Below are positions 2,789 through 12,037 of a stretch of 64,000 bases of DNA, piece by piece. The translations under genes and the position numbers were made by a program. The stretch's first letter is position 1; the number at the start of each line of letters is the position of its first letter. Origin of the DNA: Fimbriiglobus ruber (GTDB taxonomy: Bacteria; Planctomycetota; Planctomycetia; Gemmatales; Gemmataceae); the NCBI RefSeq assembly GCF_002197845.1, contig NZ_NIDE01000002.1, positions 1-64,000 on the forward strand, in the 5' to 3' direction. The notes under the pieces were generated by a model that worked only from the letters and a program-made list of their open reading frames with translations, had not been told where the DNA came from and did not search any database.

Positions 2789-4378
2789 TCAATCCCCGTC
2801 GATCAGCCGCGCCGAATAGTCCCCCGCCCCGCGTTGCGGCGCGACCCAGATCGTGTATCGCCCCGACTTGGGCAGCTTGATCGCCATCAGACTGCCCGTG
2901 GCGGCGTTGCCTTTGTTTTCGCCCGCCAGCGGCACCCCGTCAGGGCTGCGGAGGCTCACGGCCGGCTCGAACACAGCCGAGCGCACGCTGAGAAAGACTG
3001 TCTGCCCTTCCTTGCCCTCAAAGGCCCAGAAGTCCACGCTGCCAGGTTGAATGGTGCCCTGGCCGCGGCCGCCCACCTGCAACTCCTTGAGCTTCGTTTC
3101 CTTCAACGCCAGGCGGAAATCGCCGCCGCCGCCGTCACCGAGCGAGGCGACTTGCAAGCGGTACAGACCCTCGGTCACGACCATGTGGGAAATGTGCCCC
3201 TCCAGGGCGTCGCCGTCGTCGCCGCTGTTGGCTACCTGGTTACCCTGGGAGTCGAAGAGGCGGAGGACCGGGACGAACGTTCGCGAGGCGAGGGAGGCCC
3301 GGAAGAGTTGCCCGGGAGTCGCCTTGAACGTGTAAAACGCGGTGCCGTTCACGGGCAGGGTGCCGTCGACCTCCTTGCCTTGCGCGATCGGTTCGCTCGG
3401 GTCGCGAATCGTGAGCTTGTACGTGACAGCCGTTTGCGCCAGGAGTTGCAACTGATACCGGCCGTCGGCGCCGAAAACCGGCGCGTACCGGACTCGGCCG
3501 CTCCGACTGGCGACCGGCAGGAACGTGAGTTCGGGGCGAGAACCCGACGTGGCAATCCTTTGTTCCTGAGACTTGTGGGCGGGCGCGGGGATTAGCCGCG
3601 ACAGCACCTCGCCCTTCTTCTCGATCTCGATGACCCGGAACGCTCCCGGCTTTTCCGGAAAGCTCCAGACGGCCAACTCGCCGGGTTGAAGTGTGCCCGC
3701 CTGCTCCTTGCCCTCGGTCAGGTCGAACCGCCGGGCTTCGCGGATCAGGAGGTCGTAGGAGTAATCCCGGGGGCCGGAAACGATCAGGCAGCACTCGCCG
3801 TCGTCCTCGATGTGGACGGTGCCGCCCCAGTCGCGGATCTCGCGCCCTTTGAAATCGAGCACTTTCCACGCTTCGGGCGCCACCCCTTTTAGGTCCGGGA
3901 CGAGGATCTGGTCCTTCGCGCCCGGGAAGTAGTGGTAGCTCTTGCCCTCGCGGTCGAAGGTGGCGACCGTTGGCTTACCGACCGCCAGCGGCCTGGCCCG
4001 GAAGCGCTGGACCTGGAGCGTGTAATTCCCGCCGCCTTGGTATTTGAAAGCGTGGACGCGGATTTCGTATTTGGCTGTCTCGGGCAGCCGGAATGAGAAC
4101 CGGCTCTCGTTGCCGGGGTCGTCCACTTCCTGGAGGAGCTTGCCTTCTTTCTCTCCCACCTTGGCCAGTTCCAGGATCGGGTCGAACTCCCGGCTCGCGA
4201 CGTGGGCGATGATCGTTTCGCCCTTCTCGCCCTCGAAGATCCAACGATCGAGCTGGTTGTGCGTCAGAAACTTGCTGTGGCTCCCGGGGCCGCCCAGATC
4301 CCGCACCGACTCCTGGGCGCGGGCGGGCACGGCGAACAACGCGAGAACGACCGATAGCGACCAGAGTTTCGCGGTCAT
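2789..4378 (-). CDS. Secreted multi-domain protein with pre-peptidase C-terminal (PPC)-like repeats
   Basis: A 529-residue exported protein. The N-terminus MTAKLWSLSVVLALFAVPARAQ is a clear Sec signal peptide with an ARA-Q type cleavage site. The rest consists of about four beta-sandwich units of roughly 110-130 residues. Each has the PPC-like pattern of a bulky-hydrophobic pair (RWIFEGEKGETI, AFYTFKATPGQLF, DFWAFEGKEGQTV), then Asp/Pro-rich loops (FDPILELAKV, FVPVLRLFDSQGN, FEPAVSLRSPDG), and a closing strand (YRLQVAS, YTIWVAPQ). No catalytic domain is seen, so it is probably a binding or structural envelope protein. The longer reading frame to 4534 lacks a signal peptide at its start; the ATG at 4378 fits. 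It lies 80 nt downstream of the LRR gene on the same strand, as the last gene of a possible sigma-A2M operon. Confidence 0.75.
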   Translation of the reverse strand: MTAKLWSLSVVLALFAVPARAQESVRDLGGPGSHSKFLTHNQLDRWIFEGEKGETIIAHVASREFDPILELAKVGEKEGKLLQEVDDPGNESRFSFRLPETAKYEIRVHAFKYQGGGNYTLQVQRFRARPLAVGKPTVATFDREGKSYHYFPGAKDQILVPDLKGVAPEAWKVLDFKGREIRDWGGTVHIEDDGECCLIVSGPRDYSYDLLIREARRFDLTEGKEQAGTLQPGELAVWSFPEKPGAFRVIEIEKKGEVLSRLIPAPAHKSQEQRIATSGSRPELTFLPVASRSGRVRYAPVFGADGRYQLQLLAQTAVTYKLTIRDPSEPIAQGKEVDGTLPVNGTAFYTFKATPGQLFRASLASRTFVPVLRLFDSQGNQVANSGDDGDALEGHISHMVVTEGLYRLQVASLGDGGGGDFRLALKETKLKELQVGGRGQGTIQPGSVDFWAFEGKEGQTVFLSVRSAVFEPAVSLRSPDGVPLAGENKGNAATGSLMAIKLPKSGRYTIWVAPQRGAGDYSARLIDGD

Positions 4379-4458
4379 GACTGCCTTCCTGGTTTTCGGG
4401 CGAGCGGGTTTTCGGGATGTGATCGTGTTATCCAACAAGATATCGTGCCGCAGTCGTG

Positions 4459-5577
4459 TTAATCGCTCAGGCGGCCGGCCCGGAAGCCGTAACCCGGGCG
4501 GGGAATCGTCTCGACGAGGCCGAACCGGTCCCAAAGACGGCGCAAGATTTCGCTCCGCCCCGCGTCTCCCACGACAAGATCGAGGGTCTGCAAATCCCGG
4601 AGGTAAGGCGATTGCGTCAAAGCACGCACCCCGGAAACGTCAATCGAATTACCAGAGAGATCCAGGTATCGGAGTGAAGCTGCCGTCGGCCAATTGGCAA
4701 TGGCTTCGGCCGCGACCCGCGTTAACTCCAGGCCCGCTAACTCCAGGTGTCGCAGATACGGAACCCGCGCCGATTCGGTCAGTGCGATCACCACCGCGTC
4801 GCCGGGCCGGTTGCCATCCAAGTTTAGCCGCGTCAGTTTGGCGAACGTGCTAGGACCGAACATCGCTCGTATTCCCTCCGGCCCGATTCTGTTAGACGCG
4901 AGCCCGAGTTCTTCCACCCGTTCGGCAAACGGCAAAGAGGCGAACAGACTCGCGGCGCGGTCGCCAATGCTTCCGCCTTCTACATCCAGACGGATCAAAT
5001 GCGGTAGGACGTTCGGCGAGGTCATGATTTCGAGATCACGGGTTTCGATTCCTGAGTAAGCCCAGCGGAGCGTCTCCAGATTACAGGCGTGGGGTGAACT
5101 AATCAGGGTCGCGATACTCGCGTGATGCCAGTTGAGTTCGAGCCTGCCGATTCGTTTGAATAAAGCGTTAGTAAAGAGTGTGTCGAGCCCATCCGTGGGT
5201 CGGACGAACAGTTCCCACAATGGAGCCTGATCCAAGATGCCAACGTAATTCTTAAATAGCTTGTGTGAGGTGAGTCTCCGATATGGTGGGGCGACGAAGC
5301 CGCGACAGAATGGGCTGCCGCGGATGTAATCGGATAGCCCGCGCCGGAACGCTTTGCGGTGACGGTGCCACAGGTCGCGTTCCCGCCGTATAAGTCGGTC
5401 GCGCCCGGGGTCATCCGCGGGCATCTTCGCGAGTTCGCACTGCACGCGGATGAACTCGGCCCGTGCGACACGGACCGGCTCCCCGGCTTCCTCCAGCCAG
5501 TCGGCGTACACGAGCCGCGGCAGGTCGTCGTGAGGGTGTTCCCAGATCGCCGCGAGCAACGATTCTTCGTTGGACAT
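4459..5577 (-). CDS. TIGR02996 domain protein with leucine-rich repeats
   Basis: A 372-residue protein. Residues 1-50 (MSNEESLLAAIWEHPHDDLP then RLVYADWLEEAGEP, ending near ECELA-type helix) are the TIGR02996 repeat-companion domain that Gemmata-group genomes carry in many paralogues. The middle is less distinct. From about residue 165 to 345 there are ribonuclease-inhibitor-like leucine-rich repeats, for example VEELGLASNRIGPEGIRAMF, LTRLNLDGN, LRHLELAGLEL and LRYLDLSGNSIDVSGVRAL. No signal peptide or membrane segment is visible, so it is probably a cytoplasmic interaction protein; the partner is unknown. The ATG at 5577 starts exactly at the TIGR02996 domain, and an in-frame extension to 5619 adds nothing recognisable. 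It lies 64 nt downstream of the A2M gene on the same strand. Confidence 0.85.
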   Translation of the reverse strand: MSNEESLLAAIWEHPHDDLPRLVYADWLEEAGEPVRVARAEFIRVQCELAKMPADDPGRDRLIRRERDLWHRHRKAFRRGLSDYIRGSPFCRGFVAPPYRRLTSHKLFKNYVGILDQAPLWELFVRPTDGLDTLFTNALFKRIGRLELNWHHASIATLISSPHACNLETLRWAYSGIETRDLEIMTSPNVLPHLIRLDVEGGSIGDRAASLFASLPFAERVEELGLASNRIGPEGIRAMFGPSTFAKLTRLNLDGNRPGDAVVIALTESARVPYLRHLELAGLELTRVAAEAIANWPTAASLRYLDLSGNSIDVSGVRALTQSPYLRDLQTLDLVVGDAGRSEILRRLWDRFGLVETIPRPGYGFRAGRLSD

Positions 5578-5641
5578 ACGCCCTTCGATTACGCCACCCG
5601 CATCGATTCGGCCACCCAACCCGCGAGCGAGTAGGTAGGCG

Positions 5642-8600
5642 TCACCAGCCTACGAGCGGCCCCTCCCGGCCGGCCATTGGCTCAATCTTAATGGACAGTG
5701 GCTCGACCCAGTGCTTGTGGTCCGCATTGTAGTAGAGGTAAGCGCGGCTCGCCGGGCCGCGGAATCTGCCGGGCACGTCGCATACGAGGTCGACCGTCAG
5801 GGCGATTTTCTGCTCCGGGGCGAGTTCCCGCCAGTACAAGATCAACTCGCGGCCGCGGATCTCGAAGTAGCTGATCTGCTGCTTCTCCCGCAGGTCCGTG
5901 AGTTGCTTCATGTCGGTCGGTACCTTCAGCCCGGCCGGCAGGCCCACGACGGCCACCGCCATCCCCTGGCCTTGCCTCTGGCTGTTTTCTAGCGTCACGC
6001 TCAGCGGCACCGTGTCGCCTTCGCGGGCGTCCGCTCGGGCCAGTTTTGTCCCGATCCTGACGGCACACTGCTCGGCGCTGAGCGGTGTGAGGGTCGTGTA
6101 CGAATAGCTCAGGGCGAACGGGTACGGCTGGCGGGCGTCGGTCGTGATCTCCACCTCGGTCCGCTCGCCCGGCTGGAAGGCGGCCTCCGGGTTGGGGATG
6201 TCGAGGGTGATCGTTTCGCCGTCCTTCTCGTCGAACTTCTTCACCCCGACCGACCGGCCGCCGACCAGAACCACGAACACGCCGCTTTCGGCCGGGTGGG
6301 CCGACTTCTTCGCGTGCAGGCTCAGGGCCTTCAGCGCCAGGATCGTCGACTGTGTCGAGCCGTAGCCGCCGTAGCCGCCGCGTTGCTGGCTGAGCCACTT
6401 CGTCGCGCTCTTGATGGTCGGGGCGTACGTCGGGTCGTTTGCCCGGAGCCAGCCGAGGAGGGCGAGCGCGGTCGTTTCGATCGCCAGGGCGCGGCCGCCG
6501 GACCGGGTGATACTCGTCACGGCTCCGGTCACTTCGCCATCCTTGAAGTGCTTGGTTCGCAGTCGGTCGAGCAGACGGTGGGCCGTCTCACGGTCGCCAC
6601 GGAGGAGCAGGACGTTTGCGGTCAACGCCACGAAGTAGGCGTCTTTGCCGGCGACGGAATTCTCGTCCAGGGCCGCGGTCTTTAGCGCGGCGATCTCGGT
6701 TTTCAGATCGAGTCGTTCGGCGTCCTCCGGGTCGCTCTCGACCAGGGCCCAAACGATGTAGGCGTCGGTCGTGTGCTTCGGGGCGCCGCCGAAGCCGTCG
6801 AGCGCCCGGGCGTTCCGCCGGAAGCCGCCCGCACCGTCCCGGCGGGAGAGCAGGAACGCCTGCGTCCGCCGAATCAATTCCGGGTCGACCGGGTGGACGC
6901 GGGCCATGTCTTTGAATTGCAGTAGGCCGTAAGCCGTGAGCGCCTCGTGGGCCATGTCCGCCGAGCCGAACCACTCGAAGCCCTGCTTCCGCCGCAAGGG
7001 CGTGTCCGGGCATTCGTAGTTCGTCAGCCGGGCGTACCCCTGGTCGAGGAGTTGCTTCGCCCGCCGGGCCACCTGGGGGTTCGACTGGTTCGTCTGGTTC
7101 AGGTAGTCGAGGATCATCGTGTTGGGGTAGTTCGCCGTCGACGTCTGCTCGAAGCAGCCGTGCGGCTCGCGGAGCATGCCTTCGAGCCCGTTCAGCAGGT
7201 CGCTCATCGTCGACGTGTAAACCTCCAGCTTGACGGCGAGGCTGCCGGGCACCACGTCCTTCGGCAGCGTGATCGTGCCGCGGGCGCGGGATTCGATCGT
7301 GTCGCTGATCGAGCCGACGCCGGGGAACCCGTCGGGGACGATGCGCGTCGTCCGGAGGATCGCGTCCGTATCGCCCGATGCGTTCGTTGCCCGGACCAGA
7401 ACGCTCGCGTCGCCCTGGAGTTTGTTGGCTTTCAGGCTGAAAGTCTGGCGGGTCTTCCCGTTCGCCGCGAGGGTGGTTGAGGCGGTCAGACTGCCTTCAC
7501 TCCGGAGACCGGTCGGGGTCAGCGCGATCGTGAGGGCTTGTGGGTCGTCGCTGTCGTTGGTGATGCGGACCGGCATCTCGACGATATCCGTGTGAGACAT
7601 TTCCAGCGGCAGCTTCGGATCGACGCTGAACGGCTTCCGCGCCTCGATCACCGCGGTAGTCGCCCCAATGCGGCCGTCCGTGGTGTGGCCGGCGACGAGC
7701 ACCTGATACCGCGCGATGTCGTCCGAAAGCTGGAACTCGACGGCGGCCTTACCGGAGGCGGGCAGGACCAGAACCGGGTGCCAGTAGACCGTTTCCGTGA
7801 AGTCGCTACGGACGCTGCCGAGGGCCGGGTCGCGCTGGTGGGCGTACTCGCGGAGGACAGAGGGCGGGACCAGTGTGCCGACGCCCGCGGGCTGGTGTTT
7901 ACGAAGCGCCGCCGCGATCTGCGACTGCTCACGAGACCTGTCAGGGAGCGGGCTGGCGGCGGCAGGCTTGCGAGGGGCTTGGGCGTTCTCGACCGGGCTC
8001 GGCTGTTGTCCCGCAAGTGCTTGAGGCTGTTGTCCCCCTTGTACTTGCGGGTCCCCTTGTTGTCCCGCAAGTACTCGAGGCCCTTGTAGTACTTGAGTAG
8101 GATTTAAGACCCCTGGCCGGGGCGCGGGGAGGTGCGCGGCTGCCTCGTCCCTCGTTGGCGGCGCGGCTGGGTCCATTGCCGCTCCGGGTCTTATCGCGGA
8201 GCCGACTGCTTCGAAGGCCATCGATGGTGCCTCATGCGACGCGAAGAATACGGTCGACATCGCGGTCAAAACCACGAGTAGCGCCAGGACTCCGAGACCG
8301 GCCCACGTACACCCCGTCTTCAGATTGGCCGCATGCCTGGCCTTGTCCTCCGAATCGGTCGCGGTCAAGTAGTCTTTAGCCGAGAAGAATAGCCAGCTGA
8401 CGAATACCATCGCCAGGCCAACAAATGTCAGAACAAACGGCATTTTCTCGAACCAGGATTTGTATCCTCGGAGTTCGGTCGCGACCGCCGTCTGCGCTCT
8501 CTCGGCCACGTCGATGGCAACCTGCGCCGCCGCAACGGCTGCGTTGCTGGTTTCCTTGGACGCGGACAAGCGACGGTCGGCGTCGTCCGCCTGAAGTGCG

Positions 8601-11302
8601 GCCGTTTCCATCTTCGGGCGGAACTCGGACGACAGTCGCTGTTCTTCGAGCTTGGCCAGTTCGACCGGGGCCGACGTCTGCTGCCCGTGAGCCGTGAGCA
8701 TCTGGACGACCTCGGTCCGGTCGGCCGGGTCGGTCGACGTGCCGGTCTGTTCGGCGAACCGCCGCCACCCCTGGGTGCCGAGTAACAGATCCAGGGCGAC
8801 GCCTGCCTTCGGGTGGTCGGTCAGCAGGAAGTCGGCGTGTTCGAGGTCGGCCGGCTTGGCCACGTCGCCAGCGAGGAGGAAGTGCGTCGGCATGAGCCGG
8901 TCGGTCTTGTTGTCCGCCATCGCGACGACGCTCCGGTTCACCACCCCGACGAGCAGCACCGCGGGTGTGGGAGCCTGACGCTCGTTCGTGGCCGAGAGTT
9001 CCAACCGGACCTTCCCGCCCGGCAGGTAGCGCATTTTGTCCGGGGTCACGCCGAGCGTGAGTTGTTCGCCCGGGACGCGGTAAACGAGCCGCTCGGCCCG
9101 CGGGGCCAGGATCGGCCGGGTGGCGTCTTCGCCCGGTATTTCCTCGAACACAGTCACGCGGGTGACGCCGCCGGCCGTGTCGTCGCCCTGGAGCGCGACA
9201 TCGACCGGCTTACTTCCTTCGACTTTGAGCTTCCGCTGGGCGATGAGTCGGCCGCGGGCGTAAGCCCCGACGTGGAGCGTCTTCGGCCCTCGGGCCGTCT
9301 GGAGCCGGACACGGATCGGGTCGCCGCGACCGGTCACGGCGTCCAGGGCCGTCAGGGCGATGCCGTCCGCCTTCACGGCAGGCAGCGCGTAGCCGTCCTT
9401 CGTCGGCGGGCTAATGCCGGCGGGGGAGGTGAGCTTGAGGAAGTAGGTCGTGCCGGCCCGCGGCGTCAGGGTGAAGACGCCCTGGCCGCGGTTCACGCCC
9501 GCTTGCTCGGCGTCCGTGAGAGTCGCGACTTCGGCGACCGTGTTGGTACCGTCCGTGATCGTGCCCCGCAGGTCGGCCGGCTTGCCGAGCGGCGTGCGAA
9601 CCTGGAAGTAGACGCGGCCCGGCACCCCTGCGATCATCTCGCCGCCCTCGGGGAAGAACGCGACGGAGAGCGTTTTCGTCACCAGCGGGATCGGGCGAAC
9701 GATTGCCTCGGCGTCCGACCCGTCTTGAATGTTGACGCTGAACGTCGCGGTAGGCACCGTGCCGTGCGGGGCGGCGTCGAACAGGTCGGCCGGGAGCTTG
9801 AAGCGCAGGTTCAAGACCGCCTTGGTCCCGGTCGCGTCGGAGGCGATCGTGAATCGCGCGCCCGTCTGGGCGTAAAACTGGCGGCCGTCGACGTTGGCGA
9901 CCACGTTCGCTCGGGCGTCCTTCATCGGGCCGCCGGCCGTCCGCGAAACCTCGACGCGGGCCTGGACGACATCGCCCGGGCCGTAAGACTGGCCGTCGAA
10001 TTCGAGCTTCTTTTCGAACGTGTCCGGCACGTATCGGTTGACGATGAACTTGCGGGTTTCGAGAACGACTTCCCCGCCGTTGGGTTCGACCTCGGTCACG
10101 TCGAGCTTGTATTCGCCGCCCGGCGCGTCCGCTGGCAAAACGTGCTCGCCGACGCCGATGCCGCGGACCGGCTTGCGGTCCGGCCCGAGGACGGGCTTGC
10201 GATCGCTCAGCAACCGGCAGTTGCTCTCGCCGAGGGGGACGACCGCGTTGCCTGGATCGCGAAGGCGGAACCGGAGGTGCAGGTCGTAGTCCGGCGGCCG
10301 GAGGCTCGACCGGTCGAGCGTGAGCGACCGAAAGCGGACCGTTTCGCCCGGTTGATAGAGTGGTTTGTCGGTTGCGAGGTGGGTGACGTAGACCGGCCGG
10401 GCGAGGGGGATTCGCTCGGTCAACAAGCTCGGGCCGTCGTCCGCCGAGGTACTGACTTCGAGGTACAGGTCGGAGCCTGGCTTCACCTTGTCCCAGAACG
10501 ACGCCGGCAATTCGAGGGACGCCGCCCCGACGGGCTGATTATGCTCCTGCCGCAGTAGCGTGATGTCCTTGTCGTCCTTGACGACGACTTCCATCCGCTT
10601 CGGTCGGGCGACGGCTCCGTGTCGGAGGGTTTCGATCTGCCACTTGTTGGGCGCCCCGGGCTCGATCCGGGTCGGCCCGGTCAGGCGCACGTGGAACGCC
10701 CGTTCCGCCGGGACGGCTGCGACCGCGGCTCGGAGCGCGGCCTGGTATTCCCGCGACACCTTCTCTTCAGTGGCGACGGCTGCGTCCAGTTCTCGCCGCG
10801 GCCCCTGCTGGGCCGCTGCTTGTTCCGCCTGTGTCTTCGCCAGGTTCTGCCGACTCACTTCGACGGTACGCTGGCTCTTGTCGAACCTGTAAGAGACGAC
10901 TGCCCATTCCACGAGTTGGACACCGACCAGCAGGCTCAGAACGAGCAGCGGTGTCGCGACGATCCAGAGAATGCGCATTCGTCGGCTCCTGGTCGGCATG
11001 CGCTTATCGCTCGCGAGTTCGGACGGTACGGTCACCGTGTTCCGGGTCGCCGTGCTTTCCGCGGGTGGTGGTGCCGGATTGTTCATGGGTTGATCCGCCG
11101 GCAGTGACCGCTCGGGCAGACCGGCGATGGTGCCGATCAGATCGGCGTGGAAACTCATGTACCGGACGTAATGCCGTTCGGCTTCGGGCTGAGTCAGGAC
11201 GAGTTCTTCCAGCCGGGCGAGCTGGTCGGCTGTGATCGTCTCTTCGCACAGTGCGTCCAGCAGCGGCTGCAATTCGGCGGCGACGTTGGGTTCGGGGGTC
11301 AC
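5642..11302 (-). CDS. Membrane-anchored alpha-2-macroglobulin with anti-sigma-like N-terminus
   Basis: A predicted 1886-residue protein. Residues 1-65 form a helical FecR/anti-sigma-like head (LLDALCEETITADQLARLEE then HYVRYMSFHADL), followed by a Pro-rich linker and a transmembrane helix at about 109-135. A macroglobulin MG2-type domain follows (LATDKPLYQPGETVRFRSLT). Two further hydrophobic helices at about 954-976 and 995-1017 flank a 20-residue charged loop. A Gln/Pro low-complexity segment lies near 1045-1100. The complement-type half carries the thioester site PHGCFEQTS with Cys1383 and Gln1386 in C-x-E-Q spacing. Family members trap or inhibit proteases in the periplasm. The start is GTG at 11302, which overlaps the sigma-factor stop (GTGA). 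A longer frame to 11695 only overlaps the sigma gene. Confidence 0.88.
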   Translation of the reverse strand: MTPEPNVAAELQPLLDALCEETITADQLARLEELVLTQPEAERHYVRYMSFHADLIGTIAGLPERSLPADQPMNNPAPPPAESTATRNTVTVPSELASDKRMPTRSRRMRILWIVATPLLVLSLLVGVQLVEWAVVSYRFDKSQRTVEVSRQNLAKTQAEQAAAQQGPRRELDAAVATEEKVSREYQAALRAAVAAVPAERAFHVRLTGPTRIEPGAPNKWQIETLRHGAVARPKRMEVVVKDDKDITLLRQEHNQPVGAASLELPASFWDKVKPGSDLYLEVSTSADDGPSLLTERIPLARPVYVTHLATDKPLYQPGETVRFRSLTLDRSSLRPPDYDLHLRFRLRDPGNAVVPLGESNCRLLSDRKPVLGPDRKPVRGIGVGEHVLPADAPGGEYKLDVTEVEPNGGEVVLETRKFIVNRYVPDTFEKKLEFDGQSYGPGDVVQARVEVSRTAGGPMKDARANVVANVDGRQFYAQTGARFTIASDATGTKAVLNLRFKLPADLFDAAPHGTVPTATFSVNIQDGSDAEAIVRPIPLVTKTLSVAFFPEGGEMIAGVPGRVYFQVRTPLGKPADLRGTITDGTNTVAEVATLTDAEQAGVNRGQGVFTLTPRAGTTYFLKLTSPAGISPPTKDGYALPAVKADGIALTALDAVTGRGDPIRVRLQTARGPKTLHVGAYARGRLIAQRKLKVEGSKPVDVALQGDDTAGGVTRVTVFEEIPGEDATRPILAPRAERLVYRVPGEQLTLGVTPDKMRYLPGGKVRLELSATNERQAPTPAVLLVGVVNRSVVAMADNKTDRLMPTHFLLAGDVAKPADLEHADFLLTDHPKAGVALDLLLGTQGWRRFAEQTGTSTDPADRTEVVQMLTAHGQQTSAPVELAKLEEQRLSSEFRPKMETAALQADDADRRLSASKETSNAAVAAAQVAIDVAERAQTAVATELRGYKSWFEKMPFVLTFVGLAMVFVSWLFFSAKDYLTATDSEDKARHAANLKTGCTWAGLGVLALLVVLTAMSTVFFASHEAPSMAFEAVGSAIRPGAAMDPAAPPTRDEAAAHLPAPRPGVLNPTQVLQGPRVLAGQQGDPQVQGGQQPQALAGQQPSPVENAQAPRKPAAASPLPDRSREQSQIAAALRKHQPAGVGTLVPPSVLREYAHQRDPALGSVRSDFTETVYWHPVLVLPASGKAAVEFQLSDDIARYQVLVAGHTTDGRIGATTAVIEARKPFSVDPKLPLEMSHTDIVEMPVRITNDSDDPQALTIALTPTGLRSEGSLTASTTLAANGKTRQTFSLKANKLQGDASVLVRATNASGDTDAILRTTRIVPDGFPGVGSISDTIESRARGTITLPKDVVPGSLAVKLEVYTSTMSDLLNGLEGMLREPHGCFEQTSTANYPNTMILDYLNQTNQSNPQVARRAKQLLDQGYARLTNYECPDTPLRRKQGFEWFGSADMAHEALTAYGLLQFKDMARVHPVDPELIRRTQAFLLSRRDGAGGFRRNARALDGFGGAPKHTTDAYIVWALVESDPEDAERLDLKTEIAALKTAALDENSVAGKDAYFVALTANVLLLRGDRETAHRLLDRLRTKHFKDGEVTGAVTSITRSGGRALAIETTALALLGWLRANDPTYAPTIKSATKWLSQQRGGYGGYGSTQSTILALKALSLHAKKSAHPAESGVFVVLVGGRSVGVKKFDEKDGETITLDIPNPEAAFQPGERTEVEITTDARQPYPFALSYSYTTLTPLSAEQCAVRIGTKLARADAREGDTVPLSVTLENSQRQGQGMAVAVVGLPAGLKVPTDMKQLTDLREKQQISYFEIRGRELILYWRELAPEQKIALTVDLVCDVPGRFRGPASRAYLYYNADHKHWVEPLSIKIEPMAGREGPLVGW

Positions 11303-11889
11303 GGGCAGCCCTCCCGGGCGAGCAGAGTTTGGGCGCATTCGAACAGCGACTGGCGGAGCTTCGCGAGTGCCTTGTAAACGGCGTCCACCGACCGCCCGAC
11401 CTGTTCCGACGTGGACTGGGTCGTGGCCCCCTCGGCGAATCGGTGGGTCAGGAGTTCGCGGGATTGCGGGGTGAGCTTCTCGACGCAGGCGTTGAGGGCT
11501 TCGCGGCGGGCTTCCAGTTGCGCGGCCAGCGTCGGTTCGGCGGCCGCCGCGGCCACCTTGTCGAGGAAGAGTTGACTCAGCCGGGCCTGCGACCGCCGGG
11601 TTTTCTTGTGGAAATCGAGAACTTTGTGGTACGCGACCTTCCGGGCCCACGCGAGGAAGTCGGTCGGCGGGCAGGCGACGTCGAACTTGTCCCACAGGAC
11701 CAGGCTGGTTTCCTGGAGCACGTCGTCCGCGTCGGCCCGGCGTGGGAGGAGCGTGTAGATGTACGCGTACAATGGGCGTTCGTTTCGCAGGAAGAGCGGC
11801 AGGAAGAGGACGCTCTTGTCCGGCGGGCGGGCGGCGGGGGCGGTGGGCGAGGCCGCCGGGTCAGCCCCGATGTCGGTATCCACGGGCAT
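11299..11889 (-). CDS. ECF RNA polymerase sigma factor (Rhodopirellula-type)
   Basis: A 196-residue ECF sigma-70 family factor. Region 2 spans about residues 35-95: FLRNERPLYAYIYTLLPRRA, then DADDVLQETSLVLWDKFD (the -10 recognition helix region) and FLAWARKVAYHKVLDFHKK. Region 4 near the C-terminus has the helix-turn-helix QVGRSVDAVYKALAKLRQSL. The sequence pattern fits the planctomycete/verrucomicrobial subgroup of ECF factors. The first 30 residues are a Pro/Ala-rich tail. Either ATG 11889 or TTG 11898 could be the start; neither has a strong Shine-Dalgarno. Its stop overlaps the GTG of the membrane A2M gene by 4 nt, which implies translational coupling and makes the A2M head domain its likely regulator (inference). 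Confidence 0.92.
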   Translation of the reverse strand: MPVDTDIGADPAASPTAPAARPPDKSVLFLPLFLRNERPLYAYIYTLLPRRADADDVLQETSLVLWDKFDVACPPTDFLAWARKVAYHKVLDFHKKTRRSQARLSQLFLDKVAAAAAEPTLAAQLEARREALNACVEKLTPQSRELLTHRFAEGATTQSTSEQVGRSVDAVYKALAKLRQSLFECAQTLLAREGCP

Positions 11890-12037
11890 GGATCGCAACG
11901 CCTGGAAAGAAGAGGGCGACCTTCGGCCGGCTCCGGCTCCGGCCCGGTCCGGGTCGATTACCTACTTAGTTGACGCCGGCCGACGAATTGGAAGGGGAAA
12001 AGGACAAATCTTGGGAAAGAACTCTCGCCCGACGGCA

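Follow-up and report, generated by a model that had tools for sequence, protein, structure and literature searches.

A two-gene operon on the reverse strand of the 64,000-nucleotide (nt) stretch of Fimbriiglobus ruber DNA analysed here (contig NZ_NIDE01000002.1, positions 1–64,000, hereafter the window) probably encodes a transmembrane sigma/anti-sigma switch with an alpha-2-macroglobulin (A2M) as its extracytoplasmic sensor. The first gene specifies an extracytoplasmic function (ECF) sigma factor, and the second a membrane-anchored A2M, related to the protease trap of human blood, that begins with a small cytoplasmic domain, the head, similar in appearance to the usual anti-sigma lock of such factors. 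The parts of this proposal differ in strength. It is very likely that the head holds the sigma factor, there is good though lesser reason to think that the macroglobulin body controls its release, and cleavage of the body as the releasing signal, argued by analogy, falls somewhat below an even call.

The sigma gene (11299..11889, reverse strand, as for all window features below) is an open reading frame (ORF) of 196 amino acids (aa) matching the TIGR02989 profile (Sig-70_gvs1) at 144.4 bits, over the curated cut-off of 124.55. Its 3' end reads ..TGC CCG TGA and the A2M frame opens with GTG ACC CCC, the sigma stop and the A2M start sharing the four nt GTGA (11299..11302) as the initial annotation had described. 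A start at −1 recurs in seven of eight A2Ms with the window's head type, more often than chance would give, and the eighth (L041) also offers a GTG at −1, the start rule having picked an ATG at +11. As a side observation on this region, the end of another contig (G000:C13:53372-59144, L002) is nearly identical to about positions 4157–9917 of the window apart from a small length difference, reflecting either assembly redundancy or a recent duplicate.

The A2M itself (P0002, 5642..11302, 1886 aa, GTG start) consists of the head (residues 1–62, 11117..11302), a first transmembrane (TM) helix, TM1 (residues 107–133, 10904..10984), an MG2 domain assigned by Pfam (residues 308–402, 10097..10381), a membrane hairpin of TM2 (residues 954–973, 8384..8443) and TM3 (residues 996–1020, 8243..8317), a Pro/Gln-rich low-complexity stretch (residues 1021–1150, 7853..8242) lying between the A2M_BRD and A2M Pfam matches, and a Pfam TED domain (residues 1358–1661, 6320..7231) with the thioester motif GCFEQ at residues 1382–1386 (G1382, C1383, Q1386; 7145..7159). 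It thus joins MG2 (E 1.2e-8), A2M (3.8e-13) and TED (TED_complement, 1.4e-34) to a CxEQ thioester, the combination expected of a bacterial A2M, while bMG10 (24.7 bits, cut-off 26.2) and A2M_BRD (20.6 bits, cut-off 22.7) stay below their cut-offs, and the Pfam scan found neither a zf-HC2 domain or HxxxCxxC motif nor a periplasmic FecR domain. The helical head, the TM helix behind it and the intact C-x-E-Q thioester had all been recognised in the initial annotation, which named one TM helix and missed the hairpin. At least two hydrophobic helices of this hairpin type occur in 62 of the 64 ECF-linked A2Ms with at least 1000 aa of sequence, the other two having one; by simple alternation the head and the short TM2–TM3 loop would be cytoplasmic and both macroglobulin parts outside, with the Pro/Gln-rich stretch as a putative bait region. 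Other planctomycete families have A2Ms (L157, L159, L165) with an enlarged version of this hairpin, in which five or six hydrophobic helices precede the A2M domain.

The nature of the head is indicated first by its predicted fold. AlphaFold2 models of six heads of the window's type contain helices at residues 7–19, 25–37 and 39–60, with a block-mean predicted local distance difference test score (pLDDT) of 87–94 over residues 11–60 and mostly low confidence elsewhere. When 44 chains were re-aligned in a structure comparison, the top five rows, representing three proteins, were all anti-sigma factors (PupR, Z 6.5 and 6.4; RsiW, 6.1; MucA, 5.8 and 5.2), followed by an unrelated chain at 3.8. The models are therefore suggestive, not proof, of an anti-sigma-like fold, the weight of the match lying in the one function common to all five rows and not in single Z values.

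Family membership points the same way. A sample of 60 TIGR02989 loci was drawn from 11 genomes (28 from G117 and 18 from G108), 58 lying over the family cut-off and two (L207, L217) just under it. An ORF of more than 200 aa directly follows 59 of these 60 ECF genes, 58 of the partners starting at −12 to +20 nt and 29 at exactly −1, and a TM helix is found at residues 74–153 in 58 of the 59. The partner heads form one family, since each was found by hidden Markov models (HMMs) built from the other half in at least five of ten random splits, and 57 in all ten; the outer parts of the five partners examined are LamG, FecR below cut-off, or PSCyt2/PSD1. An HMM built from these 59 non-A2M heads retrieves all eight A2M heads of the window's type (E ≤ 5.6e-11), including that of L157 from another family.

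A second A2M of the same genome (C1:778253-784432) lies 116 nt behind another ECF gene (C1:777525-777983) and carries a zf-HC2 head (31.3 bits, cut-off 22.2) in one protein with MG2, A2M and TED. The only three PDB sequence matches of this head at E ≤ 1, weak but all fitting, are 3hug_B (E 0.002), listed as a membrane protein and presumably RskA, DdvA (0.14) and RsrA (0.96). A single cell thus holds two A2Ms whose anti-sigma-type heads differ, and each of the two lies behind an ECF gene. Independently of these pairs, the genome is very ECF-rich, with 124 TIGR02989 matches at E ≤ 0.001, of which the window's sigma factor is the sole one over the curated cut-off.

The association of head and sigma factor extends well beyond this genome. 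Matches to the window's A2M were found in 60 of the 61 genomes searched in its family and, at E ≤ 0.001, in 45 of 69 across the phylum (own genome included in both; many of the latter weak), and 95 A2M loci from Planctomycetota and relatives, picked as matches to the window's A2M with ECFs disregarded, were tabulated. An ECF gene lies upstream by rule in 68 of the 95, eight with the window's head type, 46 with a zinc-finger-type head carrying the Cys motif and 14 with its Cys-less form; three further loci (L160, L163, L165) have both ECF and head outside the rule. The survey of planctomycete ECF–A2M pairs that the initial annotation proposed thus yields 71 headed A2Ms, every one with an ECF upstream, and anti-sigma heads are found joined to this one body type repeatedly, in several planctomycete families. 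Named relatives include Gemmata sp. IIL30 (L040), with the window's head type, and Zavarzinella formosa DSM 19928 (L050), with a Cys-less zinc-finger-type head.

Headless A2Ms beside the same sigma neighbour, which according to the initial annotation would speak against its proposal, were not seen. Of 15 evaluable headless A2Ms, 14 (L038, L039, L043, L046–L049, L051, L056, L149, L152, L161, L162, L164) have no ECF in the upstream DNA examined, at least 800 nt in each case (the frameshifted L043 was assessed on its first frame, and L056 bears the name of a deltaproteobacterium), and head HMMs, which recovered 60 of 60 zinc-finger-type heads in cross-validation, found no head on these 14. The fifteenth, L166, is a row of ECF gene, separate anti-sigma-like TM gene and A2M gene, the middle one carrying an HxxxCxxC motif and a TM helix and scoring 22 bits with the zinc-finger-type head HMM, with no anti-sigma match in Pfam. 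In L039 and L049, two A2Ms of the window's clade that lack an ECF, TM1 is preceded by an unrelated N-terminal sequence (VDRLVYEALQREGRFVPQSPEEV..), which may point to a cytoplasmic partner of another kind. Nine of the 95 loci were left out of this concordance: L044, L052, L053 and L150 with too short upstream DNA, L085 and L159 at a contig edge, L105 and L113 with no N terminus found (L113, a fragment, has a weak head score of 7.6 bits), and the fragment L156. Outside the table stand duplicates (L062, L066 and L067, of L045, L054 and L055), the fragments L002 and L057, and L158, where ECF and the window's head type are present and the A2M is cut by a contig end. Other conserved neighbours are shared by two to four of 15 loci at a time, none of them throughout the clade.

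Phylogenetic analysis connects the sigma factor to the head in preference to the body. In a 65-row tree built on the A2M and TED region, well-supported branches nest the window's clade in a Cys-less zinc-finger-type grade, itself within the zinc-finger heads, and L157, with the window's head type, is placed elsewhere. Within the window's clade, some lineages have become headless (L047 beside L042/L036/L037, L039 beside L040/L082, and more on less well supported forks). Seven changes each are needed for head and ECF on this tree, and in independent contrasts on well-supported branches the two agree in five of five (sign test 0.0625, the minimum attainable for five). In a sigma tree of 129 rows, built by a quick method and with many open forks, one branch (SH-like approximate likelihood ratio test, 95) separates 60 sigma factors of zinc-finger-type-headed A2Ms from the other 69, made up of 60 from the TIGR02989 loci (among them L185, for which no partner was found) and nine from A2Ms of the window's head type, L158 included. 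That the 60 from the TIGR02989 loci group together is unsurprising, since they were picked by family; what merits attention is that the nine A2M-linked sigmas join them though their bodies sit among, or apart from, the zinc-finger-headed A2Ms. The computations thus show that the sigma factor tracks the head and not the A2M body, and that head and sigma are lost and swapped together.

Co-divergence was examined in paralogous TIGR02989 pairs within each of two genomes (27 and 18 pairs). Sigma and head distances are correlated (r 0.26, p 0.0035 for the 27 pairs; r 0.50, p 0.0005 for the 18), whereas for sigma distances and those of the partner's own periplasmic part no clear correlation appears (r 0.08, p 0.19, and r 0.19, p 0.08, respectively). 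Joint duplication alone would predict both correlations.

A candidate for the sigma factor's own promoter was found by motif scan 78 nt before the sigma ATG, in the form TTCCAAT-N12-GTCAACT (11968..11993). The 12.36-Mb genome holds one exact copy of TTCCAAT-N12/13-GTCAACT, that before the window's operon, and 100 shuffles of the window gave no match. The motif stands upstream of all seven headed operons of the window's clade (in L082 more than 1 kb before the sigma gene), and among 242 loci it occurs in nine, the seven operons plus two loci that are additional copies of the window's region, being absent from the other 233. We read this element as the one from which the sigma factor would transcribe its own operon.

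Several results weigh against a switch of this kind. Z values of small helical folds are weak singly, and just three head helices are predicted with confidence, the fourth, sigma2-binding helix not being seen in the models. In the reverse direction, an HMM limited to the seven A2M heads of the clade picks up no more than 22 of the 59 partners at E < 1e-3 and 33 at E < 0.05, and in profile comparison those seven heads do not match the zinc-finger-type heads (hhalign probability 0.3). The wider 59-partner family aligns better with the latter (probability 86.9, E 4e-6, the E value being for one comparison), which makes a shared origin of the two head types plausible but does not show it. Residue mutual information across 59 pairs did not exceed that of shuffles made within genomes, 70 of 200 of which scored as high, and a read-through chain of ECF and head, modelled with stops read through on an in-frame zinc-finger-type pair (L055, with L054) because the window-type pairs considered overlap out of frame, reached a pLDDT of 62.6 and a predicted template-modelling score (pTM) of 0.38, too low to support a contact. 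From the unusable complex prediction and the missing residue covariation one might argue that the head senses or binds something else, the sigma factor being governed by transcription or by another protein and the two genes merely coupled in translation. This we consider quite improbable in view of the anti-sigma-like fold, the zf-HC2 head of the paralogue, and the joint loss and exchange of head and sigma. The proposal of the initial annotation that the head is the anti-sigma factor of its co-encoded ECF is supported by fold, family, paralogue, tree concordance, co-switching and co-divergence, the complex prediction adding nothing on direct head/sigma contact.

To be set on the same side are results concerning output and body. 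An extended form of the promoter-like pattern, with up to three mismatches, gave five sites against eight for a control, so no wider regulon was found. Moreover, 12 complete ECF-linked genes (L075, L077, L106–L109, L111, L114–L118) lack a detectable TED and thioester; they keep head, TM1 and macroglobulin domains, and both hairpin helices in ten of the 12 by the cut-off used, end after the A2M (MG) domain, and have no TED within 0.7–3.1 kb downstream. Covalent capture or trapping thus seems optional for the module. Both results would suit an arrangement in which the head is a true anti-sigma factor and the A2M body its cargo, an effector and not a sensor, with release driven by general envelope stress at TM1 or in the juxtamembrane region and the sigma factor simply raising A2M supply. 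Indeed, with the sole exact promoter-like copy on the operon itself, A2M supply is the only visible output, and forms without detectable TED still retain head and ECF. However, recurrent fusion of heads to one body type in several planctomycete families makes better sense with a body that informs the head, and the hairpin is kept in 62 of 64 ECF-linked bodies, so that we regard a cargo role as unlikely, if the most serious of the alternatives.

A separate finding concerns the thioester itself. Ten related A2M genes in six genomes (three each in G097 and G071, one each in G104, G093, G036 and G004) carry an in-frame TGA in precisely the place of the thioester-cysteine codon (G-TGA-x-E-Q), seven on the forward strand (L160 at nt 6561, L162 at nt 5446, L163 at nt 7380, L167 at nt 5547, and L233, L235, L237) and three on the reverse (L232, L234, L236), with open frames of 304–1811 aa before and 211–496 aa after the TGA, some of them truncated by a contig end. 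Scanning every locus collected up to that stage for a stop codon at this position yielded four of the genes and, in A2M context, no stop other than TGA, and six were fetched because a search had flagged a TGA inside the match; L160, L163 and L167 are ECF-linked. SelB over its cut-off and a selenocysteine tRNA (tRNA-Sec) over its gathering score were found in all four TGA-gene genomes tested (G097, G071, G104, G093), although this is not specific, SelB occurring in 12 and tRNA-Sec in 13 of the 14 genomes tested overall, the window's among them. Compared with shuffles, SECIS-like hairpins shortly 3' of the TGA reach z values of about −3 to −4 in L160, L162, L232 and L233 and −2.0 in L237; the other five sites, at −1.6 to 0.2, do not convince. 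Six Cys controls, half of which were cut one base earlier, range from −1.3 to 0.2, and RNAalifold found no structure common to the ten sites. Taken together, the sequences suggest that selenocysteine replaces the thioester cysteine in these ten genes. Planctomycete selenoproteins are known (PMC4807772, whose main text does not mention a macroglobulin), and nothing on selenocysteine in an A2M thioester was found in the portions of the literature available. This finding is perhaps larger than the sigma/A2M switch.

An apparent change of thioester chemistry in related genes, together with a GCxEQ motif in 45 of the 68 ECF-linked loci (part of the remainder being cut by contig or fetched-sequence ends), could be taken to mean that an anti-sigma factor with an A2M sensor answers to something other than proteolysis, such as attack on the thioester by a nucleophile, or a change in the macroglobulin array brought about mechanically or by a ligand. 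Given the 12 complete ECF-linked genes without detectable TED and thioester, the prospects of this variant appear slim. A proteolytic signal is instead suggested by the Pro/Gln-rich stretch, which sits where A2Ms carry their bait region. In the resulting model of the switch, the sigma factor would at rest be bound by the cytoplasmic head of the A2M. The trigger would be some alteration of the A2M body, most likely a cut made in the exposed stretch after the hairpin by a stray protease or a foreign one, upon which the head would be released, probably via regulated proteolysis of its anchor, and the freed sigma factor would transcribe its own operon from TTCCAAT-N12/13-GTCAACT to give more A2M, trap and detector in one. 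Extended to the phylum, the tentative idea, which we hold at somewhat less than even confidence, is that planctomycetes use macroglobulins as detectors of proteolysis, bait cleavage freeing an ECF sigma factor from the A2M's own anti-sigma head in a one-shot, self-amplifying, immune-like switch by which a trap reports its own consumption, the head being exchanged together with the sigma while the sensor body stays.

RseA, RskA, ChrR, RsiW and MucA are class I anti-sigma domain proteins. The window's A2M resembles such factors in its small helical cytoplasmic domain, which superposes on RsiW and MucA, its TM anchor and its gene adjacent to an ECF, and differs in its outer part, a macroglobulin of 1750 aa that includes a second membrane hairpin, and in a head with no zinc motif and only three confident helices. 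With PupR/FecR-type heads and the planctomycete TIGR02989 partners it shares the best PDB row (PupR) and the head family, though it has no FecR match and an A2M as outer part. Class I domains and their co-evolution with ECFs are treated in PMC7406223. PMC4498604 describes ECAM, the bacterial A2M, as an inner-membrane-anchored periplasmic inhibitor and reports that bait-region cleavage untethers domains in the Escherichia coli A2M; the window's protein has in common with ECAM the MG2, A2M and TED domains, the thioester and membrane anchoring (PMC4498604), and adds the cytoplasmic anti-sigma-like head, the TM hairpin before the putative bait and the ECF partner. In the partly available literature, a scope that excludes the main ECF reclassification paper, no link between a macroglobulin and an anti-sigma or ECF factor was apparent, nor, in the corresponding portions on macroglobulins in planctomycetes, an ECF–A2M system; PMC12485934 and PMC12839542 are, as far as their available parts go, unrelated to it.

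Transmembrane anti-sigma factors with varied outer parts are already known, and what would be new here is the macroglobulin as sensor. Bacterial A2Ms have mostly been read as passive inhibitors. Their presence inside transmembrane anti-sigma-like proteins makes sensing by a bacterial A2M testable with a reporter gene. The sigma factor and a candidate promoter for such work are at hand, as are named relatives that could serve as hosts. If the proposal is true, the cell may read out protease attack on its envelope.

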